Assembly: GCA_013178295.1 (NCBI GenBank)
Contig: JABLWW010000002.1
Coordinates: 248,001 to 312,000 of the forward strand
DNA length: 64,000 bases
Direction: 5' to 3'
Source of the DNA: Anaerolineae bacterium
Lineage (GTDB): Bacteria; Chloroflexota; Anaerolineae; Anaerolineales; Anaerolineaceae
Shown here: in pieces, positions 1-13,238 of the stretch
How the letters are laid out: the number at the start of each line of letters is the position of its first letter
Numbering within the stretch: the first letter of the stretch is position 1
Position numbers and translations under genes: made by a program
The notes under the pieces: generated by a model
What the model was told of the DNA's origin: nothing
The model's input: only the letters and a program-made list of their open reading frames with translations
Database searches by the model: none

Positions 1-1262
1 TGATCAACCGCTGCGTATTGACTTCACAGGGCGCCGCAGCGCGCCGAACGCTGATTGAAGGAATACTCAGACGAAGTCATGAGCCATTGCTGGGCATCAA
101 TGGATTCCCCCCGGAGCGAAGTATGTATGAGACAATCTTGCGCAAAGGGGGACTTCATCGTTACAAGGGCACGGGCTGGCAAATGACGCCTCCTGACGAG
201 AACGAGCTTCAACTTTCGCCTGCCTGGCAGGCAATTTACGACTTTATTTTTTCAACACCGCCCGAGCCGCGCCCTGTGCTACAACTATATCAGCGGCTCA
301 AGTCGCCCCCCTATGGCGTTACACAAGGTGTTGTACCTTTGCTTTTAGCCGCGTTTTATAAGTGCTACGAAAATGAGATCACGATGTACAAGGAAGGAAC
401 ATTGCTGGTTGACCCAGATATTCCAGACTGGGAAGTCCTCTTACGACGCCCCGAGTTATTCTCAATAACGGGTTGCCGCGTGGCGGATTTCTACGCGACA
501 ATCGTTGAGCGCTTGGCGCGCGGTCTTGAAACCTCCCCTTATGTCATACCAGTGGTGCGCTCTCTGATTTTGCGCCTAAAAGCCCTTCCAAAGTATTCCT
601 GGCAGACTCAGCTTCTGCCTGAACATGCCAAAGCCTTGCGCCGTGCCGTCGAACACACTCGCTCCCCGGAACAGCTCCTCTTTTATGAATTACCGCAGGC
701 GCTAGAGATGTCCCCGTTTTCGCAGGGGGAATTTGACCAGCAGCAGTTTGAGCTATTTTTTGCACGCCTCAACGCAGCATTGCAAGCGCTGGCAAACGCA
801 ACTCCCCGCCTGCTGAACTGGGCGCGCGATACGTGGCTGAAAGCCTGCCGCCTGCCCGAAGGTGAAGCAGGCTGGCAGATGTTTTGTCAGCAGGCGCAAG
901 TCCTCAGCCTCCGCGTAACACATGCCGCTTTGCTCCCGCTGCTCAAGCGCGCTGCCGAAACGCCAAATCCCAGCGCCGCGCTGGAGAGCGTGTTAGCCTT
1001 TATTGCCAACCGACCGCTGCATTCCTGGAGTGATGCTGACGCCGAGCGCTTCAGCGCTCAGGCGCAGTTTTTGGGCAGCCTGTTTCAACAAGAACAGGCA
1101 GGAGAAACTTTCCCCGCTCAGCTTGATCACGATCGGCACTTGCACGCCGAACGGATTGCCGCAGAATTACAAACCCGCCTCGATGCCCTGTCTCAAGACC
1201 CGCTTATCCGCCGAACCGCTTTGCACATTTTGCTGCAACGTCTGAAAAACGACTATAATTAG
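1..1262 (+). CDS. C-terminal part of a large unidentified protein at the head of the BREX-like operon
   Basis: The frame is open to the window edge (first whole codon at base 3), so the TTG at 18 is probably internal and the N-terminus lies outside. About 420 residues are visible, alpha-helical and Leu/Ala/Arg-rich, with no Walker motif, membrane segment or signal peptide. The early part contains a motif around GFPPERSMY and then a region around LLLAAFYKCYENE. These recall the C-terminal parts of big P-loop ATPases found in phage-defence loci, but this is a recollection, not a proven match. It ends 25 bp before the brxP-like gene, which has a good Shine-Dalgarno, so co-transcription is likely. 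Codons are more GC-rich than those of the genes from 3453 onward. Confidence 0.6.
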   Translation, partial: INRCVLTSQGAAARRTLIEGILRRSHEPLLGINGFPPERSMYETILRKGGLHRYKGTGWQMTPPDENELQLSPAWQAIYDFIFSTPPEPRPVLQLYQRLKSPPYGVTQGVVPLLLAAFYKCYENEITMYKEGTLLVDPDIPDWEVLLRRPELFSITGCRVADFYATIVERLARGLETSPYVIPVVRSLILRLKALPKYSWQTQLLPEHAKALRRAVEHTRSPEQLLFYELPQALEMSPFSQGEFDQQQFELFFARLNAALQALANATPRLLNWARDTWLKACRLPEGEAGWQMFCQQAQVLSLRVTHAALLPLLKRAAETPNPSAALESVLAFIANRPLHSWSDADAERFSAQAQFLGSLFQQEQAGETFPAQLDHDRHLHAERIAAELQTRLDALSQDPLIRRTALHILLQRLKNDYN

Positions 1263-1287
1263 ATCAACCAGACAAGGAGAAAATGCA

Positions 1288-2094
1288 ATGATGGCAGATG
1301 GCAGGACGCGGCACATCGTTTCGCTTTCAGGGGGCAAGGACAGCACCGCGCTGGCAATTTATCTGCGCGACCGTATCCCCGAATTGGAATACGTCTTTTG
1401 CGATACTGGCGAAGAACTGCCGGAAACGTATGAGTATCTGGAAAAGCTGGAAGTCTTTTTGGGGAAAGAGATTAAAAAGCTCAAAGCGCGCCAATCGTTT
1501 GAAGACATGCTAAAAGCAAGGAGGGGATTTTTGCCATCAACGCAGGTTCGATGGTGTACGGAATATCTAAAAATCAAACCTTTTGAGGAAGAAATCGGAG
1601 ACAGCATTTGTCATAATTACATAGGAATTAGAGCAGATGAAAATCACCGAAAAGGGTATATTTCGACAAAACCCAATATTCTTGCTCACTATCCTTTTAT
1701 TGAAAATGGCATAACTAAGGAAGACGTCTTCCGAATTTTGGAAGAAAGTGGACTAGGTCTCCCAAAGTATTATTTGTGGCGCTCTCGTTCTGGCTGTTAC
1801 TTCTGCTTCTTCCAACAAAGAATTGAATGGTTGGGTTTGTTAGAGCACCATCAAGACTTGTTTGAGCGTGCAGAAAAGTTTGAAAAGGAAGACCCAATAA
1901 CCAATAAACGCTATACATGGTCACAAAGGGAAAGTCTGAAAGAATTGCGCTCTTATGAACGACAAAGAGAGATAAAAGACGAACACCAGCGCAGGTTAGA
2001 AACTTCAAAATCCCCTAGGGTAAATTTGTCGCTGGCAGAAGTTTTCTCTGATAACGAAAATTGTCAAGAATGTTGTCTAATTTGTCATCTCTAG
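1288..2094 (+). CDS. brxP: PAPS-reductase-like PP-loop protein, BrxP/DndC-type
   Basis: This 268-residue member of the PAPS reductase/ATP pyrophosphatase family has the PP-loop SGGKDS at residues 14-19, which binds ATP. Cys90 (in RWC), Cys170 and Cys173 (GCYFC) resemble the iron-sulphur/sulphur-transfer cysteines of DndC-type enzymes. Cysteines 259, 262, 263 and 266 form an extra C-terminal cluster. DndC relatives activate the DNA backbone for sulphur insertion, and in BREX type 4 this gene (BrxP) occurs instead of the PglX methyltransferase. ATG 1288 follows AAGGAG (1274-1279) at normal spacing. Base composition changes from GC-rich to AT-rich near base 1500 inside the gene. The sulphur role is inferred from family and neighbours, chiefly the cysteine desulfurase at 11235. 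Confidence 0.85.
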   Translation: MMADGRTRHIVSLSGGKDSTALAIYLRDRIPELEYVFCDTGEELPETYEYLEKLEVFLGKEIKKLKARQSFEDMLKARRGFLPSTQVRWCTEYLKIKPFEEEIGDSICHNYIGIRADENHRKGYISTKPNILAHYPFIENGITKEDVFRILEESGLGLPKYYLWRSRSGCYFCFFQQRIEWLGLLEHHQDLFERAEKFEKEDPITNKRYTWSQRESLKELRSYERQREIKDEHQRRLETSKSPRVNLSLAEVFSDNENCQECCLICHL

Positions 2095-2110
2095 GGTTTT
2101 GGATAAAGAA

Positions 2111-2923
2111 ATGATCTCAACATATAGCCTCACCTTTCATCGTACGTTTTCGTTATCGCGCACATCAATCTCAAAAGTCTTGAGTTTAGCAAAAAATAAA
2201 CCTGGGTTTAAGACTTCCGAGCTTCAACTCTATACCGATCTTGGAACTATTTATCAGGAAGCGATGCCGCGCTATGCAAGCCGGGCAGGATTGCTCGAAG
2301 AAAAGAAAAATGTTCTGACACCATTTGGGAAAACAGTTGCCGAGCATGATCCCAGCTTGGAGAAACTCGATACCCAATGGCTGCTGCACTACCATCTTGC
2401 CGCGCCGCACGGCGTTACCGCTTTTTGGCATTTTTTGGTGCGCAAGCGCTTTCTTTCCGGGAACATTTTCACGGCTTCTGACCTGGTTGATGACCTAAAA
2501 CACTTCCTGCTCGAACACACGGGCAAAACACCGGCGCAGGATTCTATCCGCAGCACAGCAGCCATCTTCAGCGGCACGTACCTCAAGTCCGATGGGCTGG
2601 GGCGGCTGGAATTGCTGGAACAGATGCAAGAGAGAACCTACCGCGTGGGTTATCCCAATCCGCCTTCGGCACAGGTGATAGGATATGCCCTGACAGACTA
2701 CTGGAAGGCGCATTATGACGGACGGCTCACAATCAATCTCGATGACCTGACACATGGCGACTTTGCCGCCATTTTTTTGTTGGGAGAAGAGAGCCTGACA
2801 CAGATACTGCTACAACTAAAACAAGAGGGAATGCTTGATCTGTACCGCATCTCGCATCCGTATCAGGTTGTCCTGTTGCAGCCTGAACCGGAACTTGCTT
2901 TGCAAAGGTTGTATGCCCGATGA
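2111..2923 (+). CDS. DUF4007 family protein
   Basis: The protein has 270 residues from ATG 2111; an in-frame TTG at 2099 is an alternative but sits only 4 nt after the brxP stop. The N-terminal part (LTFHRTFSLSR, then a helix-turn-helix-like stretch and a conserved WLLHYHLA) matches my memory of DUF4007, a family found beside phosphorothioation (Dnd) and BREX-type genes. It has no enzyme motif, signal or membrane segment. The winged-helix look of the N-terminus would fit DNA binding or an adaptor role in the modification complex, but no function is established. It is followed after 21 bp by the small gene at 2945 in the same frame. Confidence 0.75.
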   Translation: MISTYSLTFHRTFSLSRTSISKVLSLAKNKPGFKTSELQLYTDLGTIYQEAMPRYASRAGLLEEKKNVLTPFGKTVAEHDPSLEKLDTQWLLHYHLAAPHGVTAFWHFLVRKRFLSGNIFTASDLVDDLKHFLLEHTGKTPAQDSIRSTAAIFSGTYLKSDGLGRLELLEQMQERTYRVGYPNPPSAQVIGYALTDYWKAHYDGRLTINLDDLTHGDFAAIFLLGEESLTQILLQLKQEGMLDLYRISHPYQVVLLQPEPELALQRLYAR

Positions 2924-2944
2924 CATGAAAGGAGGGATAAAAGG

Positions 2945-3409
2945 CTGAAAGTTAAGCAACTGTGTGACCAGCTTCGTCAGCCTGGTGCAAGGGCAGGCGT
3001 AGGTGTGTGGCTGATGCCAATACAATATTTTGGCAAAGAAGAACAAATTGCCATCCGGCTAAACATCCACGCCCTAGACGCTCGGCAGGAATACCTGCAA
3101 ACCCTACCTGAGGGGGCCAGATTTTCTGGTCTCACCTGCGCAGACGGGCACCACAATTTAATCCGCATGTTGATTGGGCTAACCGACAGAATCCATCCAA
3201 GCGATTGTTTGTTGGTCTATAACCTGGATCTGCTTGTGCTTGGGCTGGATGTAAATGAGCGCGAACGCTTCTGGCGCGAGGTTCTGGAAGGACTACCCTA
3301 CCCGCGCACCAAATTAATCCTGTCTGTTCCAGACACCGCCAGCCAGGTATTCCCGCTGGTTCTTCAGCAGGAATACCCAAGCCGCATTGCACGGGGAGAT
3401 TGGACGTAA
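2945..3409 (+). CDS. small BREX-operon protein of unknown function, probable CTG start
   Basis: A GTG at 3005 is the first standard start, but no ribosome-binding site precedes it. The same frame is open back to a CTG at 2945, preceded 8 nt upstream by a strong AAAGGAGGG (2928-2936). From that CTG the product has 154 residues beginning KVKQLCDQL, and the extra 20 residues look like normal coding sequence. The C-terminal half contains a strand-helix-strand unit (LLVYNLDLLVLGL, then TKLILSVPD) like the Walker B region of a small P-loop protein, yet no Walker A is present. I do not recognise the family. Its place between DUF4007 and the BrxC-like ATPase suggests a structural or adaptor subunit of the defence system. 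Confidence 0.65.
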   Translation: MKVKQLCDQLRQPGARAGVGVWLMPIQYFGKEEQIAIRLNIHALDARQEYLQTLPEGARFSGLTCADGHHNLIRMLIGLTDRIHPSDCLLVYNLDLLVLGLDVNERERFWREVLEGLPYPRTKLILSVPDTASQVFPLVLQQEYPSRIARGDWT

Positions 3410-3452
3410 CATTAAAACCGTTTTGTGAAGTGTTCATACACAGGAGGGAAGC

Positions 3453-6400
3453 ATGCTTGTTAAAGATTTGGTCAGCATGGATACAAAGGGGGCTTTTCGC
3501 TCAGATGTCCAGCTTAGCGATTATGAAGATAACTCACTCAACCGCGGCCTGCTGGAACATTACATTTTTACCACACATGCGCCTGTAGTGTATGGCGCGG
3601 CAACACGCAGGTTGTCAGCAAAAGATGTCCTTGTGATGCTAAGAGACGTTTTTACAAACGAACGCGTCGAGAATCGTTTTGTATTAACAGCAAATTACGG
3701 TCATGGAAAAAGCCACCTGGCGTTGGTGCTGGCAAACTTTTTTTCCAAACCTGCTGATTCAGGCGAAGTAGACACTATTTTTAAACGCTTGTCTCAAGCG
3801 CTCAACGACCCGCCTGCACTGCAGGGTTTTCGTCAAATCAAAAACAGCAAGGGGGAATTTCTGGTTATCCGTTTGCAGGGAGAACGCATCCAGGACTTTC
3901 AAGCGGGTTTTTTGGAAGCGTTGGAGAAAGCCCTGCGCGAACATTCCGTCACAAGAGATATTAAACTTCCCTTGTGGCATCATCCAGCCGAAAAATGGCT
4001 CAATAGCCTGGGGGACGAACAACGCCAAAAAGCGCAGACCTATTTGGCAGAACAAAACACCGATTTAGCGACTTTGATTGCAAATCTGCGGCAGGAAGGC
4101 GCTTATGAGCAGGTGTGCGAATTGTTTAAACATCTCAATGGTGCTTATCCAAATTTTGGACGGGAGCTTAGTCTAGAGGAGATTGTGGTTTGGGCAGTGG
4201 ACGAAGTTTGTTTGCCATGCGGGCTAGGCGGTTTGTTAGTTTTGTTTGACGAGTTCAGCCTGTTTTTGCGGCGTTATGTCGCAAGCCGCTCGGTAGGTAA
4301 GCTACAGGATTTGCTAAATGGCATTTCAAAGCGGCAGGGAAAAAGCGCTTTTCTGGCGTTTACCCAGCAGGATGTACAAACAGTCTGCGAGACGTATGCC
4401 ACAGGTCAACGATTAGACGATGTCAAAAAAGAACTAGAGCGCCTTCCCAGAGACAAGCGCGCCGAGCTGCATTCACTCATGGAAAGCGTGCTGGCTTCTT
4501 ACTTGAAGCAGGATGAATCTGCTTGGGAAAGCTGGGCTCAAGGTCAGCCTGTGAAAGGCTTCCTAGTGAGAGCGCGCGATAGCGTCTTAGACCACTTTGG
4601 CAAACGATACACAAATGACTTGCAATGGGACGCGGCGGCAGTTTACAAGAACATTGTCAAAGGGTGCTATCCGCTTCATCCTCTTACCACTGCCATCCTT
4701 GCGGCACATAGTTTTGATCCAGGGGCAGGCGATAATCCGCGCACAGTACTTCAATTTGCACGCCGTGCCTGGGAAGAAATTTGTCAGTGTCCTACAATGC
4801 TGGATGGCAAACCAAATTTTGTGTACCCCATTCATCTGGTAGATTTCTTTGGAGAACAAATTTCCAAAAAGCTTTTTGAAAGTTATCAGAACGCGCTCGG
4901 AAGTCCAGAGGTGCTTACAGAAGAACATCAAAAAGTCATCAAAGGGCTGTTTTTGCAGGAAGCAGCAAAGATAAGGGCATCGATATCAGGTGGTGCACAA
5001 TTTTGTCTCCTAGAACAATTATGCGGATTGGATTCCCAAAAAATCAAAGTTCTTCTTAGGGCACTTGTTTCCAAACAGGTGATTCAAGAAATGGGGGGAA
5101 CTTATGGATTGTGGCCTCCCAGCTTATACAACGCTGAAATGCAGGATATCCTCAATCAGGCTACCCAGAGGGTGGAAATTAACTCAGCACTGCTGGAAGA
5201 AATCGACAAAACTTTGCCGCCCTTTGACCTAAGCCAGGAATTTGGTCATAAAGATGATTGGTCGCCCAAACAAATCGTTTTGACGGAGTCTCTTTTCACT
5301 TCCCAAGAAATAAAAAAGCGCGCGAGGAAATATTCAAAAGGAATTGAGGGGATCGAAGAAGGCGTGCGCGGGTTGGTGATATGGCTGATTGCTCAGAGCG
5401 AGGAGGAAAAAGTGCGTCTGCGGCAAAAAGCTCAAAACGTCTTGGATGAGGCGCTAAAAGATCAAGAACACCCTCTGCCAATCGTAGTTGTTCTCCCCAA
5501 ACAGCCTTCAAGCGATTTAATAGAATATGCTCGAACAAAAAAAGCGATAGATAGCCTCTCGCAGAATGAGCGTGAAAAAATTGGAAGTCTGGCAATGGAT
5601 TCACAACGTGGGCTTATCAATAGCCGCTTTGCTCAGACACTGCATGAGCTGATTGGGGAATCCCATAATTATCTAGATGTTCCTCGCGTAATTCATGAAT
5701 TTGCTCTGCCCGCGCCCTATCGTGCCTCGGTTCAGGCGTTGCCGCGTCACAGCCTTAAGACCGTGGTTGGGGAATGCTACCGGCAGGCGTATGCATACCG
5801 CCCCGAGTTTTACACTCAGTTTACCGTAGGCGGAAAGGGTCCCCAAAAACTGCGTGATGCAGCCAAAAAAGTGGCGTTGTGGTTGGTGGAAGATCGGGCG
5901 AGCAATGGTGTCAGTGCACAATCTCAGACGGATATTTCAAAACAGCTCTGCATGACATACTTGACTCAAAAATGGGGGCTGCTATCCCCATCCTACACTA
6001 TCCAGCCCCCAACCCTAAATGCCTTATGGCAAGCATGGGAAGAGTTGGGTAAGACCTTTGCGCCCGGGTGCAAGGATGTTTCTGTGCAGGAAACGCTTAT
6101 CAAATTGCTTAATCCACCCTATGGGCATGACTATAACACACTCATCCTATTATTCACCGCCTGGATCGGCTACCACCAGCATGAACTGCGGCTAGCACTT
6201 GGCGGACGCACGGTATCAGTCGCCGAGTTCAAAAATCGTCTAGATGCAGAAAAGTATCCACAGAGCTTTATTAGTAATATCTGCGGTTCAACAACGCCAT
6301 TGACCATCAGCCGATCGCGCCCGGATGAAATGCCCAAAGAAATCGAACAGGTTCTAAACAGCATCCGTCAAGGAGAAACCTTCAGCCAATCCGAAGCGGC

Positions 6401-7646
6401 GGGGGCGCTTGCCATTCTGCAACAAGCATTGGCACACCCGCGTTTGACATCTACAAGTAAAGATGAAGTCGAGCGGCTTCTCCCACGCTTATCTGAGGCT
6501 TTTCAGATTGCCCAGGAGTATGATCAGCAGGCAAGTGACTTGCTGATGAGAATAAACTCGGGCGATCTGGAAAAAATCATCACAATCACATTCGAGCACT
6601 TGGCTTTGCCTACGTTTGTGATCCCTAATCAGCCCAGTGTGGAGGAAATAAGGCATAGATGGAGAACCCAAGTCCAAAATCAACTTGAAATGTTCTGTGA
6701 AAGATTTGAAAAACTGTCCGATCTCACAGATTATAAGGAGCACGAAAAACAGCTTCGAGACAAGCTTCAAAAATTGAAAAGCTACCCGGATTTAGCACAG
6801 CGATTAAAACAAGCGCTTGAACATTTAGAACAACAAAAGCTTGCATTGCAAAAGCGCGAAAATGAAAAGACAATCATAATGCAAATCGAGAACATGAAAC
6901 CTTCAGTCGCGTTGAGAGATCTGTATGAGTACCGCGAGGCACTGAGCGGTTTTTCGGATTTATCGCCAGAAACAGAGAAACTGCGTAAAACCCGACAGGA
7001 TGAGATCGAGATCAGAATTCACCAATATGAGCAAATCGTAGATGTGCTACCCACAGCCATCGAAGCAGCGCGCACTGTGGATGATCTGAACAAGCAGCGA
7101 GACGTTCTCTTACAAAACATCAGTCAAGTTGAAGGTACCCCTCTTTATCAAAAACTACAAAGTCTGCAGCAGAAGATAGAAAACTTACAAAGGTTTTTTA
7201 ATGAACTCAATCAAATCGATCTTGGAAAGCTCACAACCCCTGAAGACTTTGCGCAAGCACAAGCACAAATGGAAGAGACTGACAAACGCTTTTTGGGTTT
7301 ACTTAGCAATACCCAGAAGCAGTTGTTCCAAAGTAAAAAGCTGAAAATAGAACAAGAGTATGACCGTCAAATCCAAAGTGCGCAAGACTGGTTAGAGAGG
7401 CAAGAGCAGCTATTCCGCACAAGAGAACAGATCAAAGAGCTAAAGTCTAGCCTTGAGAATCCGCCCTCTTTTTTGTCCTTGCCAGAGTTTCGTGACCGGA
7501 TACAACAACTGAGACAAAGCGTCCAACAAAAATGGGATCAAGATGTTGCCCTTCAAATAGAAATTCTGTTTTTGGAAATCGCCGATTTCCAAACCCGGCA
7601 AAAGTGTTTGGAACGTTTGCAGCAGATCACGAAGACGCAACTATGA
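3453..7646 (+). CDS. brxC: large P-loop ATPase, BrxC/PglY-like
   Basis: This is a 1397-residue ATPase. Walker A is GHGKSH at residues 83-88 and Walker B is VLFDEF at about 263-268. The last roughly 350 residues are rich in Glu, Gln, Lys and Leu with heptad-like spacing and are probably coiled coil. Size and layout fit BrxC/PglY, the AAA+-like ATPase that acts with PglZ in every BREX type and is needed for phage exclusion. ATG 3453 has AGGAGGG at 3441-3447. The stop overlaps the pglZ start by ATGA at 7643-7646, so translation is probably coupled. No nuclease or helicase motif was noticed. The family call rests on motifs, size and neighbours rather than on an alignment. Confidence 0.8.
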   Translation: MLVKDLVSMDTKGAFRSDVQLSDYEDNSLNRGLLEHYIFTTHAPVVYGAATRRLSAKDVLVMLRDVFTNERVENRFVLTANYGHGKSHLALVLANFFSKPADSGEVDTIFKRLSQALNDPPALQGFRQIKNSKGEFLVIRLQGERIQDFQAGFLEALEKALREHSVTRDIKLPLWHHPAEKWLNSLGDEQRQKAQTYLAEQNTDLATLIANLRQEGAYEQVCELFKHLNGAYPNFGRELSLEEIVVWAVDEVCLPCGLGGLLVLFDEFSLFLRRYVASRSVGKLQDLLNGISKRQGKSAFLAFTQQDVQTVCETYATGQRLDDVKKELERLPRDKRAELHSLMESVLASYLKQDESAWESWAQGQPVKGFLVRARDSVLDHFGKRYTNDLQWDAAAVYKNIVKGCYPLHPLTTAILAAHSFDPGAGDNPRTVLQFARRAWEEICQCPTMLDGKPNFVYPIHLVDFFGEQISKKLFESYQNALGSPEVLTEEHQKVIKGLFLQEAAKIRASISGGAQFCLLEQLCGLDSQKIKVLLRALVSKQVIQEMGGTYGLWPPSLYNAEMQDILNQATQRVEINSALLEEIDKTLPPFDLSQEFGHKDDWSPKQIVLTESLFTSQEIKKRARKYSKGIEGIEEGVRGLVIWLIAQSEEEKVRLRQKAQNVLDEALKDQEHPLPIVVVLPKQPSSDLIEYARTKKAIDSLSQNEREKIGSLAMDSQRGLINSRFAQTLHELIGESHNYLDVPRVIHEFALPAPYRASVQALPRHSLKTVVGECYRQAYAYRPEFYTQFTVGGKGPQKLRDAAKKVALWLVEDRASNGVSAQSQTDISKQLCMTYLTQKWGLLSPSYTIQPPTLNALWQAWEELGKTFAPGCKDVSVQETLIKLLNPPYGHDYNTLILLFTAWIGYHQHELRLALGGRTVSVAEFKNRLDAEKYPQSFISNICGSTTPLTISRSRPDEMPKEIEQVLNSIRQGETFSQSEAAGALAILQQALAHPRLTSTSKDEVERLLPRLSEAFQIAQEYDQQASDLLMRINSGDLEKIITITFEHLALPTFVIPNQPSVEEIRHRWRTQVQNQLEMFCERFEKLSDLTDYKEHEKQLRDKLQKLKSYPDLAQRLKQALEHLEQQKLALQKRENEKTIIMQIENMKPSVALRDLYEYREALSGFSDLSPETEKLRKTRQDEIEIRIHQYEQIVDVLPTAIEAARTVDDLNKQRDVLLQNISQVEGTPLYQKLQSLQQKIENLQRFFNELNQIDLGKLTTPEDFAQAQAQMEETDKRFLGLLSNTQKQLFQSKKLKIEQEYDRQIQSAQDWLERQEQLFRTREQIKELKSSLENPPSFLSLPEFRDRIQQLRQSVQQKWDQDVALQIEILFLEIADFQTRQKCLERLQQITKTQL

Positions 7647-9808
7647 ACGCCGATATTTTGCTTGATATAAGTGGATCACTGCCCGCGCCTAAAGGTTTTC
7701 TTGTCATTGAGAACGAAGTTGATTTTCTTAAGCATGCCACTGATCAGATTCCACTTCTGATACAGGGACCGAGGCTGTGCGCTTGGGCAGAGGCGTTTTA
7801 TACGCTACGAAAGCGTTCCTATCGCTATGAGGAATCGCTCACCGCCACACTGATGCGGTTGTTTCCGCGCCTTTCGAGGGAGCAAGCAGAAAAACTTGTG
7901 GGAAAGATAGGAAGTAGCAGCGCAAGCATCAATGAGATCAGTGCTGCATTTCTTCTCAACAAACTGTATCCATCAGACTCTTCGCTTTGGAACGCTTGCA
8001 CCTCTTCTAGACATGCAGCCGAATGGCTGCTGTGGATTTACGATCATCATCCAAGCGACGACGAGAGGATTATCCTAGAAGAGCAAGCAAAAATGTGGGC
8101 AACTCAGTCAAATGCCGCCCCATATCAAGCAATATATCGGGTGAAAGAACCTTCTCACGCCAAAGAGGCTATATACGACTGGCTAGGGTTGGGGCAGAGA
8201 CAAATTTGGAAAGAGATGAAGGATTTTCCACTACCCTTATCTGCCCCAATCATGCAGGAAATAAAAGCTGAATGGAGAAAGTTGATCATCGAAAGCCAAG
8301 GTAAATACTTCGAGGATGCCCTGCACATACCTTTGTCCAACTTGCTTCGTCAGGAGCTTGCTGAATCAACCTGCCAGTACTACCACGAAAATAGCCAATT
8401 GTTAACCCCTCAATCCCTGGAGCAATTGCAACGTTATCTTCCTTCAAAATCTTGGCAAAGTTTACGCAAGCTGGTTCCCCCTGCTATACCATCAAATATG
8501 CCTGAAGATGAGCAAGAAATTCTATCCTGGTTTCAAAATGAATACCTGCCCTACCGACAATGGCAGCACTTGACAGGTGACCCCGAAGCTGCACAATATG
8601 TACATGACTTTGCAAAAAGATTTGCACGTTGGTACTTGCGTGAATATCCCCGCTGGCTGATAGAGCCAGGGGTTCTCTCCTTTCAATTTTCCGCCGAGCT
8701 CGCCCATATTTCTGATGCATTAACGCTTTGTATTGTGTTAGATGGCTTACCTGTCTGGGATGCAGAAGACTTTGCGCGCAGGGCCTCTGCGGACATTGAA
8801 CGTTTGCAAATACAACAAAGACACTATTGTTTTGCATCTTTGCCAACAATTACCGAATTTGCTAAAGAAGCTCTTCTAAAGGGAATGCCTCCCCGTCTTG
8901 CGTTAGAATATTCTCCTCTTGGCAAGATTCTTTCGGACGCTTCTGCTCCCAGCAGAGAGTTATATAACGCCCAGAAGGGAGATTTGTTCTTCTGGCGAAT
9001 TGAACAACCCGATAAAGCTTATCACTCTGTTCAAAAGGACAAATTAGGACGTCAAATTGAAGGGGAACTGTCTGCAATTGTACATGAACTTCAACAAATT
9101 GTTGAAGGTATACCCGATGATAAACCTTTACGGGTAATTATCACAACTGATCATGGGCGTTTGTTCAATGCAAGATCACCACGTTGTTTGCCTATTCCAG
9201 AGGGAATGCAAGCGCATGGACGCGTAGCTTGGGGAAAGATTAATAAGCCACTTGACGAAACCGGTTTCTTTGTGGACGAATCGGCTAGATGGATCATCGT
9301 TGACGGCGAACGTTTTCAGGTTCAATACGATCTGCTAATCGCATTGGAGGAGGAATCTTTTCGAACAAAAGATGGAAAATCAGGGGATGAGCCATATCCG
9401 CATGGAGGGCTTTATCCTGAAGAAGTGATCATCCCATGGTTTGTGTTCGAGCGCGACGCCGTTCCTCCTAAAATAAGCATTGAGATCACAGGTCATGGTG
9501 AGGCGAATAAGACTGGCACCTTGCTGGTGAAAATCACAAACCAAAGTATGGTAACGTTGGAATGCTTAGAAATATCCCTCTCGGCAGTAATCAATGAGCA
9601 TGTTAGATGTCAAATTTCACCATTGCAAGAGACCACCTTTAAATTTAACACTATCTCCTGGCCAACAAAATCTGCTTTGCCATCACTTAAAGCAAAACTG
9701 CTCTTTCGCATGCCAAATGGAAAAACCTTTGAACAGGAAATCATGCCGAAACTAGAGATAGCCGATGAGCTTTATTCGCAACCTACACTAAAGGACCTGG
9801 GGTTATGA
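7643..9808 (+). CDS. pglZ: PglZ-domain protein (alkaline-phosphatase superfamily)
   Basis: ATG 7643 overlaps the brxC stop (ATGA), giving 721 residues; the longer in-frame extension back to 7532 lies within brxC and is rejected. The core carries VLDGLPVWD at about residues 364-372 and ITTDHG at about residues 499-505. These are metal-binding motifs of PglZ, the hallmark BREX protein of the alkaline-phosphatase fold. A basic, mostly helical N-terminal region precedes the core and a beta-rich C-terminal tail follows. PglZ proteins of BREX act with the BrxC ATPase; the exact reaction is unknown. Its stop overlaps the brxL start by ATGA, so brxC, pglZ and brxL are likely made in a fixed ratio. 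Confidence 0.88.
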   Translation: MNADILLDISGSLPAPKGFLVIENEVDFLKHATDQIPLLIQGPRLCAWAEAFYTLRKRSYRYEESLTATLMRLFPRLSREQAEKLVGKIGSSSASINEISAAFLLNKLYPSDSSLWNACTSSRHAAEWLLWIYDHHPSDDERIILEEQAKMWATQSNAAPYQAIYRVKEPSHAKEAIYDWLGLGQRQIWKEMKDFPLPLSAPIMQEIKAEWRKLIIESQGKYFEDALHIPLSNLLRQELAESTCQYYHENSQLLTPQSLEQLQRYLPSKSWQSLRKLVPPAIPSNMPEDEQEILSWFQNEYLPYRQWQHLTGDPEAAQYVHDFAKRFARWYLREYPRWLIEPGVLSFQFSAELAHISDALTLCIVLDGLPVWDAEDFARRASADIERLQIQQRHYCFASLPTITEFAKEALLKGMPPRLALEYSPLGKILSDASAPSRELYNAQKGDLFFWRIEQPDKAYHSVQKDKLGRQIEGELSAIVHELQQIVEGIPDDKPLRVIITTDHGRLFNARSPRCLPIPEGMQAHGRVAWGKINKPLDETGFFVDESARWIIVDGERFQVQYDLLIALEEESFRTKDGKSGDEPYPHGGLYPEEVIIPWFVFERDAVPPKISIEITGHGEANKTGTLLVKITNQSMVTLECLEISLSAVINEHVRCQISPLQETTFKFNTISWPTKSALPSLKAKLLFRMPNGKTFEQEIMPKLEIADELYSQPTLKDLGL

Positions 9809-11238
9809 GTGAAATGGTTACACCCGAATCAATAAACAATAAGGTACTGCAGACTTTTGAGCATTTAGCAATTGACAAACGACGATTGCCCAGCAGTCAA
9901 TTAACCAAACGAAATATTCCAGCTTATGTTGCTGAATGGCTTTTAGATAATCTTGTTCCAGGTGATGGTCCCATCTCACCCGAGAAACTAGAGGCCATTC
10001 AGACGTGGGCGGATCAATTTATACCAATACCGGGGGAGACAAATATCATCAAAAACCGTCTGCTGAATGGTGAAGTTGTCAAAGTATTAACGCCTGTAGA
10101 AGTCGAAATTCGACTGACTCGCAATGTTCGTGAGCGAGTTGCTCAGCTTAAATTATTAGGTTTAGCAGATGTTCACATTCCTGATACTTTTGTTGAGGCA
10201 TACCCAGACCTACTCAAACAGGGAATGTGGGGAGTTGCTGAATTAATAGACACTCAGGAGGGTGTGGCAATTTCATCTTTCAAACCCATGCAGGCATCGG
10301 TTAATCTTGAGATTTTCAAAGAAAAACGCTCAAAGTTTACTTTAGAAGAATGGCGGGCTTTGCTCCTGACCTCAATGGGATACAATCCATGGAAATTTGA
10401 TGAGCCTGAAAAAACCTTTTTGCTTTGCCGGTTGCTCCCGTTAGTGGAAAAGAGCTTGCACCTGTTGGAATTAGCACCAAAAGGCACAGGCAAGAGTTAC
10501 TTCTATGAAAACATTAACCCGCGTGTTCGCCTGATTAGTGGTGGAAATGTTTCACCTGCAGTACTGTTTGTAAATAATGCTTCAGGGTATTGGGGACTAC
10601 TAGCGCGCTTTTCAGTCGTTGTTCTGGACGAGGTGCAAACTCTGAAATTTGAGAGACCTCAGGAAATTATTGGTGGTTTAAAGGGTTTTCTGGCAAACGG
10701 ACGTCTCACACGTGGGGGATTGTATGAAACATCCAGTGATTGTAGTCTAGTTATGCTTGCAAACATATTATTAGATAACGAGCAACAACCCATTATATCG
10801 CCACTGGTTAAAGAACTGCCCGAATTTATGCAGGAAACTGCTTTTCTTGATCGCCTGAGGGGCATATTGCCCGGCTGGAAGATTCGCAAACTAAGTGGTG
10901 ATTCGTTTGCGCAAGGTGTAGGACTAAAATCGGATTTCTTCGGCGATGCTTTGCTGGCACTTAGAGAGGATTTGACTGCTGATCAATATGTTGCGCATAG
11001 AATTCAATTGCAAGGCAAAAAGTTATATAAGCGAAATGAGGATGCCGTCCGTATGATAGCAAGCGGATTGATGAAACTTCAATTTCCACATGGAGAGTTA
11101 AGTGATGACGAATTTGAGAGATATTGTATCCGCCCTGCAATTCAGCTGAGACAGTTGGTTTGGGAACAGCTATATACTCTTGACGCTGAGTATCGGCAGT
11201 ATGATGAGGAAATCACCTATAAAATCATATCATCATGA
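9805..11238 (+). CDS. brxL: BrxL-type AAA+ protein, short form
   Basis: The 477-residue protein has Walker A PKGTGKSY near residue 226 and Walker B VVVLDEVQ near residue 270. Between and after them lie conserved BrxL-like stretches (SGGNVSPA, GLKGFLANG). BrxL proteins form DNA-binding AAA+ rings and are required for BREX defence. Type 1 BrxL is about 680 residues and ends in a Lon-protease-like domain. Here the chain stops roughly 200 residues earlier and no Ser-Lys protease dyad region is visible. It begins inside the pglZ stop and its own stop overlaps the next start (ATGA), so the shortening is not a frameshift at the 3' end. It may represent a type 4 form. Confidence 0.85.
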   Translation: MSEMVTPESINNKVLQTFEHLAIDKRRLPSSQLTKRNIPAYVAEWLLDNLVPGDGPISPEKLEAIQTWADQFIPIPGETNIIKNRLLNGEVVKVLTPVEVEIRLTRNVRERVAQLKLLGLADVHIPDTFVEAYPDLLKQGMWGVAELIDTQEGVAISSFKPMQASVNLEIFKEKRSKFTLEEWRALLLTSMGYNPWKFDEPEKTFLLCRLLPLVEKSLHLLELAPKGTGKSYFYENINPRVRLISGGNVSPAVLFVNNASGYWGLLARFSVVVLDEVQTLKFERPQEIIGGLKGFLANGRLTRGGLYETSSDCSLVMLANILLDNEQQPIISPLVKELPEFMQETAFLDRLRGILPGWKIRKLSGDSFAQGVGLKSDFFGDALLALREDLTADQYVAHRIQLQGKKLYKRNEDAVRMIASGLMKLQFPHGELSDDEFERYCIRPAIQLRQLVWEQLYTLDAEYRQYDEEITYKIISS

Positions 11239-12383
11239 CACCAGGCAAACCTATCTACCTTGATTATAATGCGACTACCCCCTGTGATCCACGCATCGTC
11301 CAGGCTATGATGCCTTATTTCACAGAAATCTATGGCAACCCTTCAAATGGGTTACATAGTTTGGGGCGGGCGGCTCACTATGCAGTAGATACAGCACGTC
11401 AGAAAGTTGCCGAATTAATCGGTGCAAATTCTGGTGAAATCATCTTTACGTCTGGGGCCACTGAAAGTAACCATCTTGCTATTTTAGGAACAACTTATTA
11501 CGCTTCAGAAAGCCGTAGAAAAATAATAGCTAGCTCCATCGAACATAAAGCAGTACTTGAACCATGTAAGAGACTAGTTGAACAGGGTTTTGACTTAGTG
11601 GTTGCACCTGTAACCCCGGATGGTGTGGTTGATTTGGATTTTTTATATCAAGCAATTGACGAAAACACCTTTTTAATCTCTGTGCAATTAGCAAACAATG
11701 AAATTGGCACCATTCAGCCGATTGAAGAAGTAGCACGGTTAGCACGTCATAAAGGCGCACTGCTTCATTGTGACGCTGCGCAAGCTGTTGGCAAAATTCC
11801 TGTGGACGTAAGCAAAATCAACCCAGACTTACTTTCATTTAGTTCGCATAAGATATATGGTCCGAAGGGTATAGGCGCTCTTTATATACGCGGGCGAAGT
11901 ATTCCTATCTATCCCCTGCTAGTAGGGGGAGGACAAGAGTTTGGTTTGCGCGCAGGATCGTTAAATGTTCCCGCCATTGTAGGATTTGGTATGGCATGTG
12001 AAATAGCAAAAGACGAAATGGTTGAGGAATCAACCCGCTTAGGCTCTTATCAAAGTTATCTTGAAGCTTCTCTAATTGACAGTGTTTCTGGGTTACGAAT
12101 CAACGGCTATCGCGCACCGCGCTTGCCCAATACAACTAACATGACATTGCCCAATGTTGAGGCAGATGTTTTCTTGCTCAATTTGCCAAACCTTATGATG
12201 AGCACTGGTGCCGCATGTAATACAGGTGCCGTAGAACCTTCACATGTGTTACAGGCAATTGGTTTAAGCCGCGACCAAGCCAGTCGCTCAGTTCGAGTTT
12301 GCACTGGACGTTTCACTAGCAAGGAAGAAATCATAGAGGCTCTTGACCAAATCTATGGTTTTTTTGAGGTGAAATTTTCTTGA
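11235..12383 (+). CDS. cysteine desulfurase (IscS/DndA/SspA-like, class V aminotransferase fold)
   Basis: The 382-residue PLP enzyme starts YLDYNATTP, has the cofactor Lys in SSHKIYGPKG (about residue 205) and the catalytic Cys in STGAACNTG (about residue 328). Such enzymes take sulphur from L-cysteine as a persulfide and hand it to a partner. Its start overlaps the brxL stop by ATGA, so it is the last gene of the defence operon and not a housekeeping isc/suf gene; no scaffold gene is nearby. The natural partner in the operon is the BrxP-like PP-loop protein at 1288, by analogy to DndA-DndC and SspA-SspD in phosphorothioation systems. The active-site cysteine is present, so activity is expected. 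Confidence 0.9.
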   Translation: MTPGKPIYLDYNATTPCDPRIVQAMMPYFTEIYGNPSNGLHSLGRAAHYAVDTARQKVAELIGANSGEIIFTSGATESNHLAILGTTYYASESRRKIIASSIEHKAVLEPCKRLVEQGFDLVVAPVTPDGVVDLDFLYQAIDENTFLISVQLANNEIGTIQPIEEVARLARHKGALLHCDAAQAVGKIPVDVSKINPDLLSFSSHKIYGPKGIGALYIRGRSIPIYPLLVGGGQEFGLRAGSLNVPAIVGFGMACEIAKDEMVEESTRLGSYQSYLEASLIDSVSGLRINGYRAPRLPNTTNMTLPNVEADVFLLNLPNLMMSTGAACNTGAVEPSHVLQAIGLSRDQASRSVRVCTGRFTSKEEIIEALDQIYGFFEVKFS

Positions 12384-12461: not shown

Positions 12462-13238
12462 TTAACGAGAAGCTCCATCTTTCAAGCCCTGCTGGTACGT
12501 CTTGGTTTGTTCTAAGTCCAGCCAAATCTCCTTGTTGGCATCTTTCTTGTGCCTTCGTGCCCTTTTCAAGCGAATTGCTGAATGTAAGCCGTGCAGTTCC
12601 AGGTAAAAGTGATTATCGCCGCTGTCATACCCTTTATCCGCTGCATAGGTCGCAACTGGCAGACCTTGCTCTAAGTCATGTTTGACCAATCCGCAAAAGT
12701 GATGTCCATCATAAGCCCCTCCCCCACGCATCTCCAAACTGGTAATCAGTTTGTTTTGCGCATTCATACCCATGTGGGCTTTGTAACCGTAAAAGTACTT
12801 GCTCTGTTTCAGGCTTTGCCCCTCTTCGCTCTTGACTGTGCGTTTGTGTTTGACGCCCCATTCGGCATCCGCATCCCGTTGCGGTTTGCCCTTTTTCTGC
12901 CGTCGTTCATCTTTCTCGATTTTGACATGGCCGGCGCTGTAGGCGCTGTCCACAATCTGTATCGAACCAAACTGTATCCCTTTGCGCACTGCCGTCTGCA
13001 CAACCTCTTCCAGCAGATCTTCAAACACCTTCAATTTTCCCCGCTGCACCAGCCGCTCACGAAATACCGTCAGCGTCGAATGATCCGGGGCTTTCTCATC
13101 CAGCGCTAACCCAACAAAATATTTGGCAGGTAGATTTTCAATTTCCGCAAGAAATGATCGCCTGGCACAACCTGGTCGTACGGATAGTCCCCCAAAAAAA
13201 GACCCTTTACCGCTTTCTACAAGTCGCTCTTTTTTCAT
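12462..13238 (-). pseudogene. decayed DDE transposase (DUF772/IS5-IS1182-like)
   Basis: The open frame gives 258 residues, but it is a patchwork. After SFFG the normal continuation DYPYDQVVPGDHFLRK sits in another frame. The shift lies at a T7G5 run (bases 13189-13200, plus-strand C5A7), so an indel or a sequencing error is possible. It then jumps to AEIENL...FVGLALDEKAPDHST, missing about 50 residues that relatives have between these parts. The first two catalytic acids can be seen (VDSAY; ADKGYDS), but the frame ends KDGASR before the third acidic residue, and only remnants such as AQALLKN follow in the downstream sequence. It lies directly after the defence operon, is opposite in orientation, and has a plausible ribosome-binding site upstream. 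Confidence 0.75.

Follow-up and report, generated by a model that had tools for sequence, protein, structure and literature searches.

The first 12,383 nucleotides of the window analysed here (64,000 nucleotides; bases 248001-312000 of contig JABLWW010000002.1 in the 3.95-Mb genome of an Anaerolineae bacterium, assembly GCA_013178295.1) contain all but the upstream end of a nine-gene operon, sspB1-sspC-sspD-sspB2-orf154-C2-pglZ-brxL-sspA. This operon probably encodes a phosphorothioate (PT) defence system of two modules, in which an SspABCD writer would mark host DNA with sulphur and an effector resembling bacteriophage exclusion (BREX) systems would attack DNA lacking the mark. The window edge cuts the operon, leaving sspB1 and the start of sspC upstream, and 12 kb of upstream sequence were added to read the whole operon (L001). 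An original prediction from the window alone had proposed a sulphur-type BREX (type 4) operon that is self-sufficient for putting sulphur on DNA, with its cysteine desulfurase as the notable part. Homology gives good support to the core of this proposal, namely a BREX-like operon that writes PT and includes its own desulfurase. Three features look new: the full SspABCD writer joined to a separate BREX-like effector set, the co-evolution of the operon as two units, and a sulphur-binding domain at the module boundary in some relatives.

All four writer proteins matched Ssp models in PADLOC. SspB1 (306 residues; L001:8999-9919, just before sspC), the putative nickase/site subunit, scored 287 bits with the SspB model PDLC02768 and 272 bits with Pfam DUF4007 (cut-off 27), and its profile matched solved SspB (6juf/6lb9) with an E value of 6e-61. 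The writer ATPase SspC (1116 residues; L001:9912-13262, forward strand) starts 2088 bases before the window, and only its C-terminal part lies within it (positions 1-1262, open reading frame [ORF] 3-1262). SspC matched model PDLC02779 with 1000 bits over positions 2-1049 of 1054, and it also matched the BrxC model PDLC02478 with 775 bits. SspD (1288-2094, forward strand, 268 residues) is a PP-loop sulphurtransferase resembling 3'-phosphoadenosine 5'-phosphosulphate (PAPS) reductases. It scored 359 bits with the SspD model over positions 1-276 of 277, and SGGKDS, Cys90, Cys170, Cys173, Cys263, and Cys266 were invariant in 28/28 aligned rows. The PP-loop motifs of the protein previously called BrxP-like were present as described; its identity as BrxP was not borne out, the BrxP model scoring merely 49 bits. 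The cysteine desulfurase SspA (11235-12383, forward strand, 382 residues) scored 479 bits with the DndA model and 474 bits with the SspA model. Among 24 aligned rows, Lys206 was invariant and Cys328 was present in at least 90%. By homology, SspA would be the sulphur donor of the writer. Regarding Dnd-type genes, no DndB, DndD, or DndE model matched any of the nine genes, and DndC scored just 24 bits, on SspD. Since SspA, SspB, SspC, and SspD are all present in the operon, its claimed self-sufficiency is plausible. However, four further desulfurase-like matches occur in the genome, including a nearly full-length one with 43% identity, and the local desulfurase may thus be dispensable.

The remaining five genes form the putative effector. 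SspB2 (2099-2923, forward strand, 274 residues, with a TTG start or an ATG at 2111) is a second DUF4007/SspB-like protein (Pfam DUF4007, 71 bits; PADLOC SspB, 62 bits). Its profile matched solved SspB with an E value of 3e-6 and aligned to SspB1 at 99.5% in hhalign. SspB2 co-evolves with C2 rather than with SspD, and it would be an effector-side DNA-binding subunit. The small conserved gene orf154 (2945-3409, forward strand, 154 residues) has a presumed CTG start preceded by AGGAGG. No Walker A motif was found in its 25-row alignment, and its AlphaFold2 model (predicted local distance difference test [pLDDT] score, 92.9) adopts an AAA+-like fold. In VIA, this model aligned with Rad24-RFC over 137 residues (Z 8.8, root-mean-square deviation 3.6), while BrxB was absent among the listed VIA rows. 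The lack of a Walker A motif has also been described for BrxB (PMC12839542), and orf154 may be a BrxB/BrxF-like protein of the inactive STAND type.

C2 (3453-7646, forward strand) encodes a 1397-residue P-loop ATPase with a Walker-A region ANYGHGKSH and a Walker-B-like LFDEF. No PADLOC, Pfam, or NCBIfam family reached an E value of 0.001 for C2 (PADLOC BrxC, 0.005), and a search for a solved relative yielded weak matches to unrelated proteins only. The alignment with SspC in hhalign reached 99.7% over 816 columns with 15% identity, and G83, G85, K86, H88, L264, F265, D266, and E267 were invariant in 27 rows. By this profile comparison, C2 is probably a distant SspC/BrxC-type ATPase, and it would act as the effector ATPase. 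The protein called a BrxC-like ATPase in the original prediction thus exists, although it belongs to no library family at that threshold.

PglZ (7643-9808, forward strand, 721 residues) belongs to the alkaline-phosphatase superfamily and is a nuclease or phosphatase by homology. It matched the PADLOC model PDLC02549 with 340 bits over positions 4-711 of 726. Pfam PglZ gave merely 20 bits (cut-off 25), and a whole-genome search with Pfam PglZ returned no match because the window's PglZ scores below this cut-off. The AlphaFold2 model had a pLDDT of 90.9, and its twelve best PDB matches in Foldseek were all PorX (best E value, 1e-11). Among 30 rows, DHGR and HGG were invariant, as were the P and second T of PTxT, the first T occurring in at least 90%; the PTxT and HGG stretches align with PorX. 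T538 and H741 of a type I PglZ, which correspond to T272 and H500 of PorX, are reported as needed for or raising nuclease activity (PMC12205998), and we infer that the same PTxT/HGG residues may be active in the window's PglZ. BrxL (9805-11238, forward strand, 477 residues), an AAA+ Lon-like BREX protein, scored 701 bits with PADLOC PDLC02507 and 504 bits with TIGR02688 (cut-off 329). PglZ, BrxL, the desulfurase with Lys206 and Cys328, and the ATGA overlaps said to join the last four genes were all confirmed; the overlaps lie at 7643-7646 (C2/pglZ), 9805-9808 (pglZ/brxL), and 11235-11238 (brxL/sspA). The C-terminal part of sspC, sspB2, and orf154 were missing from the original prediction.

Genes of this kind recur far beyond chance. 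We found C2 with PglZ in this setting at 36 loci in seven phyla; "nine-gene" here denotes the kind of operon, as contig ends truncate some loci and sspA is absent from others. For 22 complete loci (21 without L098, on a Pseudanabaena galeata plasmid), we compared pairwise identities for each of the nine genes, with the mean over genes removed. The split of SspA, SspB1, SspC, and SspD from SspB2, orf154, C2, PglZ, and BrxL was the best of 246 in each of the three sets of loci used. It also came first in 21/21 leave-one-out runs, after removal of L041 and L045, and in 193 of 200 subsets of 14 randomly drawn loci. This result is not an effect of gene position, as sspA adjoins brxL and sspB2 adjoins sspD. 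Therefore, sspA is a member of the writer despite its place beside brxL.

The phylogenetic trees provide an example. L041 and L045 joined the window's clade in the C2 and BrxL trees (support, 100 each), but not in the SspC, SspD, or SspA trees. Approximately unbiased (AU) tests rejected an SspC tree with the C2 grouping (p 0.037), as well as a C2 tree with the SspC grouping (p 0.009). On a tree with only five outside rows (three FtsK-linked and two linked to helicase/phospholipase D [PLD] genes), 27 of 29 nine-gene SspC rows lay together on the same side of one branch (100/100). The exceptions were L098, from a cyanobacterium, which grouped with the helicase/PLD-linked rows (100/100), and L058, from an acidobacterium, which grouped with SspBCD of other PT systems (86/81 only). 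The SspD tree agreed for 26 of 28 rows. Since SspC and SspD of L098 and L058 fall with other PT systems, writer and effector were joined at least twice on these trees, and cassettes seem to have been exchanged between loci.

Such partial independence could also mean that an Ssp writer and a BREX effector are mere neighbours that do not cooperate. Besides the partly separate evolution, this explanation draws on L058, the only locus with SspBCD on the strand opposite to the effector genes, and on effector-like modules without SspBCD (L036-L038 and L040, described below). We nevertheless consider it very improbable. The interleaved order, with sspA after brxL, is kept in most of the 36 loci, and the last genes of the window operon are coupled by ATGA overlaps. 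Two or more joinings of writer and effector are needed by the SspC and SspD trees, one genome carries the two halves on separate contigs, and a sulphur-binding domain occurs on the effector-side DUF4007 protein in every intact fusion.

Publications already describe PT-based type 4 BREX (PMC12839542; PMC11931770, with reference to a 2024 preprint), and an ordinary type 4 system (BrxP, one BrxC, PglZ, and BrxL) that happens to carry a desulfurase is a natural alternative. The likeness is considerable: a PT-type writer replaces PglX; SspD, SspC, DUF4007, PglZ, and BrxL correspond to listed type 4 components; and a desulfurase was reported in 255 of 457 type 4 taxa (56%; PMC12839542, section 34). 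Moreover, the match of SspC to BrxC PDLC02478 suggests that earlier BREX sets may include such proteins; the strong matches to this model, PglZ PDLC02549, and BrxL PDLC02507 mean that earlier surveys may hold such genes while leaving the arrangement undescribed. However, the BREX-4 PglZ model NF033445 scored only 27.8 bits (range, 23-28) on the window's PglZ against a cut-off of 140. Among 400 genomes of the phylum, one (G354) passed this cut-off, with 618 bits. At its true BREX-4 locus (L090), BrxP scored 850 bits on 816 residues, as opposed to 49 bits on 268 residues in the window. L090 has one BrxC (PDLC02485, whole length), PglZ PDLC02554, and BrxL PDLC02505, none of which is a best match in the window. 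This canonical BrxC appears as two adjacent ORFs matching two halves of one model (L090:9835-14011). The window operon also has a separate small AAA+-fold protein, two DUF4007 proteins, and two SspC/BrxC-type ATPases, whereas the component list in PMC12839542 has one each of the latter two kinds. Because the BrxP and PglZ models fail in the window while succeeding at a true locus of the same phylum, and because the ATPase and DUF4007 proteins are doubled, we rejected canonical BREX type 4, and regard this alternative as improbable. The operon would be type 4-like in its working, with PT instead of methylation, yet fails published features that define type 4. The earlier type assignment was accordingly not upheld, and the desulfurase, being already in print, was rejected as a novelty. 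None of the literature found in our searches describes a doubled DUF4007/ATPase set or reports a sulphur-binding domain within a BREX-like operon; the words SBD, sulfur-binding, and ScoMcrA were not found in the accessible text of PMC12839542.

The canonical gene order of BREX type 1 is brxA-brxB-brxC-pglX-pglZ-brxL. The effector module follows this order (A-like, B-like, C-like, Z, and L), and L036, a distant relative from the same family, has an N6 methyltransferase gene between its C2-like gene and pglZ. In contrast, the window operon has no methyltransferase, and its counterparts of BrxA, BrxB, and BrxC are only distantly similar. The writer resembles that of SspABCD systems with SspE or SspFGH (PMC8092258), as SspA, SspB1, SspC, and SspD match and sspA may adjoin sspBCD there. 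It differs in that the effector is a five-gene BREX-like set rather than SspE or FtsK-type SspFGH, with a second DUF4007 protein, a second SspC-like ATPase, and sspA at the far end of the operon. We rejected FtsK-type SspFGH, as no FtsK-type SspH or partner model matched among the nine genes. PbeABCD-type PT systems, exemplified by L076 (PADLOC PbeA) and the cyanobacterial plasmid loci L129 and L131 (helicase and PLD annotations), share the SspBCD cassette, and it is with SspC of L129 and L131 that L098 SspC grouped. They have helicase/PLD-type genes where the window operon has PglZ and BrxL. Among 67 plasmid records with SspC, five other sspBCD loci were opened; their neighbours were FtsK-type (SspFGH-like) or helicase/PLD-type, and a desulfurase lay near sspBCD in four of the five.

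At the boundary between the modules, where sspD gives way to sspB2, some relatives encode an extra protein of approximately 165 residues. A profile of eight such proteins matched the solved sulphur-binding domain SBDHga1 (8h0l) with an E value of 8.7e-35. All four proteins tested matched NF045808 (phosphorothioated DNA-binding restriction endonuclease) over the first third or so (E values, 1e-5 to 4e-4), with 20-25 bits, far under the whole-protein cut-off of 180; a Pfam search for the domain gave no relevant match. We found the domain in 14 of the 36 nine-gene loci, eight of which had built the search profile, but in none of 11 loci of other kinds or three fragments. It occurs as a separate gene in nine loci, as an in-frame N-terminal fusion to SspB2 in four (L053, L061, L065, and L071), and in a stop-interrupted form in one (L074); the effector-side DUF4007 protein is the partner in 4/4 intact fusions. 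According to PMC6224610, the ScoMcrA cavity uses H116, P165, and R117, the last being "lysine in most homologs". A His-Lys pair was present in 13/13 proteins covering it and the Pro in 14/14. The domain thus resembles that of PT-dependent type IV restriction enzymes (ScoMcrA and SBDHga1) in both its family match and its cavity residues. It differs from ScoMcrA-type enzymes in standing alone or on SspB2, and the short proteins concerned show no nuclease domain. Its place beside or fused to the effector suggests how own and viral DNA could be told apart.

The direction of this discrimination separates the preferred reading from its main rival, in which the two modules are the same but PT on host DNA activates the effector, in an SspE-like manner. 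SspE works in this way (PMC8092258), and the domain, which binds PT in known proteins (PMC6224610), is here fused to an effector subunit. However, SspFGH damages non-PT DNA (PMC8092258), BREX type 1 spares methylated self-DNA, and the domain was not found in 22 of the 36 loci, so that it is not the sole activator. We consider activation by PT unlikely, though it deserves more weight than the alternatives above. Under the preferred reading, in which DNA lacking the sulphur mark is attacked, SspA would take sulphur from cysteine and pass it to SspD, and SspB1 with the SspC ATPase would choose sites and insert the sulphur into host DNA. SspB2 (BrxA-like), orf154, C2, PglZ (as a nuclease), and BrxL may inspect DNA and block phage replication if its sulphur state is wrong, and in a subset of relatives the sulphur-binding domain may read the mark. 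The effector would block unmarked DNA, as SspFGH (PMC8092258) and BREX with methylation do. Sulphur on the DNA, the block to phage, and unmodified DNA as the target are all inferred.

Several observations weigh against this reading. SspD is the weakest member of the writer unit, with residual correlations of 0.02 to 0.19, and when L098 is included, BrxL has a residual correlation of +0.22 with SspA and -0.26 with orf154. The split rests on the identities of 22 loci, many from one phylum. The AU p value of 0.037 is just under 0.05, and the tested clades were picked after the trees had been seen. Foldseek found nothing for orf154 at an E value of 0.001 or better (best, 5.6e-3), and SspB2, orf154, and C2 are only distantly related to BrxA, BrxB, and BrxC. 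The gene sspA is missing after brxL in four of 31 loci with at least 1,200 bases there. The absence of the sulphur-binding domain from those 22 loci also counts here, as does its absence from the window operon; a search of the window's genome, run with no positive control, gave no match. Since the operon and its genome show none, the design does not depend on the domain.

Four more distant effector modules (L036, L037, L038, and L040) have no SspBCD alongside. Iterated hidden Markov models (HMMs) took in distant loci such as L036-L040, and the high HMM scores there are partly circular because these loci were included in building the models; single-sequence scores, which are free of this circularity, were 19-345 bits. 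In L036, the large gene between the C2-like gene and pglZ encodes an N6 methyltransferase (Pfam Eco57I, 122 bits), and the large gene in the same place in L037 was likened to it by position and similar first residues. The L036/L037 operon appears to be the effector module's counterpart for methylation. Both loci (L036:8011-19999 and L037:7583-19998) come from the family of the window's genome and encode, in order, a DUF4007 protein, proteins of 163 and 1371 residues, the large protein, PglZ, and BrxL. The effector-like module of L038 (630-12841) is followed by an MIT_C/PLD-like protein and a TIR/Mrr protein. SspD was found elsewhere in one of these four genomes, G175, which has effector L040. 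In this single case, sspB1-sspC-sspD lies on another contig (L134); among ten neighbouring ORFs there, PADLOC found no match to SspE, SspFGH, Pbe, or BREX models, and a 91-residue protein matched helix-turn-helix-type models only.

These findings bear on SspBCD modules without a known partner. SspE or SspFGH is lacking in 2,211 of 2,678 sspBCD modules (printed as 83.9%), for which undiscovered restriction partners were given as one possibility (PMC8092258). The nine-gene operon type would supply one such partner, which occurs in seven phyla and has some cultured carriers. On balance, we lean towards a distinct type of PT-based BREX ("Ssp-BREX"), in which a separate DUF4007 protein and SspC/BrxC-type ATPase serve the writer and the reader/effector, so that either the SspABCD cassette or the effector could be replaced without the other. 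The effector-side DUF4007 protein, sometimes with the sulphur-binding domain, would read self and non-self. Effectors of this kind, whether encoded beside the writer or at another place in the genome, may be the missing restriction partners of some "orphan" SspBCD. The fusion of the domain to the effector-side DUF4007 protein makes self-DNA sensing by BREX-type effectors directly testable, since mark, writer subunit, and putative reader subunit reside in separate proteins.

By record name, the carriers belong to Chloroflexota, Thermomicrobiota, Bacteroidota, Armatimonadota, Acidobacteriota, Thermodesulfobacteriota, and Cyanobacteriota (a plasmid), in addition to a deltaproteobacterial metagenome-assembled genome (MAG); one classification counts the Thermomicrobiaceae genome inside the window's own phylum. 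Many carrier genomes are MAGs, in which binning can err. Cultured carriers are Thermomicrobium roseum DSM 5159, Levilinea saccharolytica KIBI-1, and Hymenobacter piscis NST-14. A C2 search matched nine of 101 relatives (five full-length) and, in an overlapping set of 400 genomes of the phylum, 15 (four full-length and one in two fragments). It also gave 37 loci in the genome collection and three plasmid records; of 39 pattern matches in viral contigs, none was confirmed as a C2 relative. The 36 loci comprise 32 of the 37 collection loci, the window, L034, L097, and L098. Left out were two fragments (L064 and L070), L067 (only sspB2 and C2), and L076 and L077 (no C2). L029, L030, L031, L032, and L033 duplicate L046, L056, L073, L063, and L075, respectively. 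A six-frame profile search supplied orf154 in L041, L047, L049, L050, L052, L053, and L074, sspB2 in L049, and sspD in L034, which is open to approximately five residues of the profile end.

Apart from L058, gene order was common to all loci as far as the contigs reach. Of the 31 loci with sufficient sequence beyond brxL, 27 have sspA there. Among the remaining five, L043 and L060 break off at the contig edge with only the beginning of sspA present, L049 ends before brxL, and no sspA was seen in the 606 and 917 bases after brxL in L056 and L072, respectively. C2 is split into two ORFs in L048 and L061. In L044 (Anaerolinea thermolimosa IMO-1), sspC is in two pieces (285 and 830 residues), separated by an opposite-strand ORF of 451 residues in a manner that resembles disruption by an insertion.

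A promoter scan upstream of sspB1 in the window's genome gave one site, on the opposite strand, with a count near chance expectation. Directly after sspA and convergent with the operon lies a transposase gene (12462-13238, reverse strand, 258 residues; Pfam DDE_Tnp_1 and DUF772). On the Pseudanabaena galeata plasmid (L098), orf154 matches weakly (17.6 bits) and extra genes are inserted; those annotated as a PemK/MazF toxin and a Uma2 family endonuclease lie at 8259-10711 inside the nine-gene order. An Annamia dubia plasmid (L099, 2507-17106), which is not among the 36 loci, carries a desulfurase (579-residue ORF) together with sspB2, orf154 (19 bits), pglZ, brxL, and C2 in several fragments, near the start of the record. 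On the Thermomicrobium roseum plasmid (L097, 19382-24182), type III-B CRISPR (Cmr) genes stand right after sspA on the other strand.

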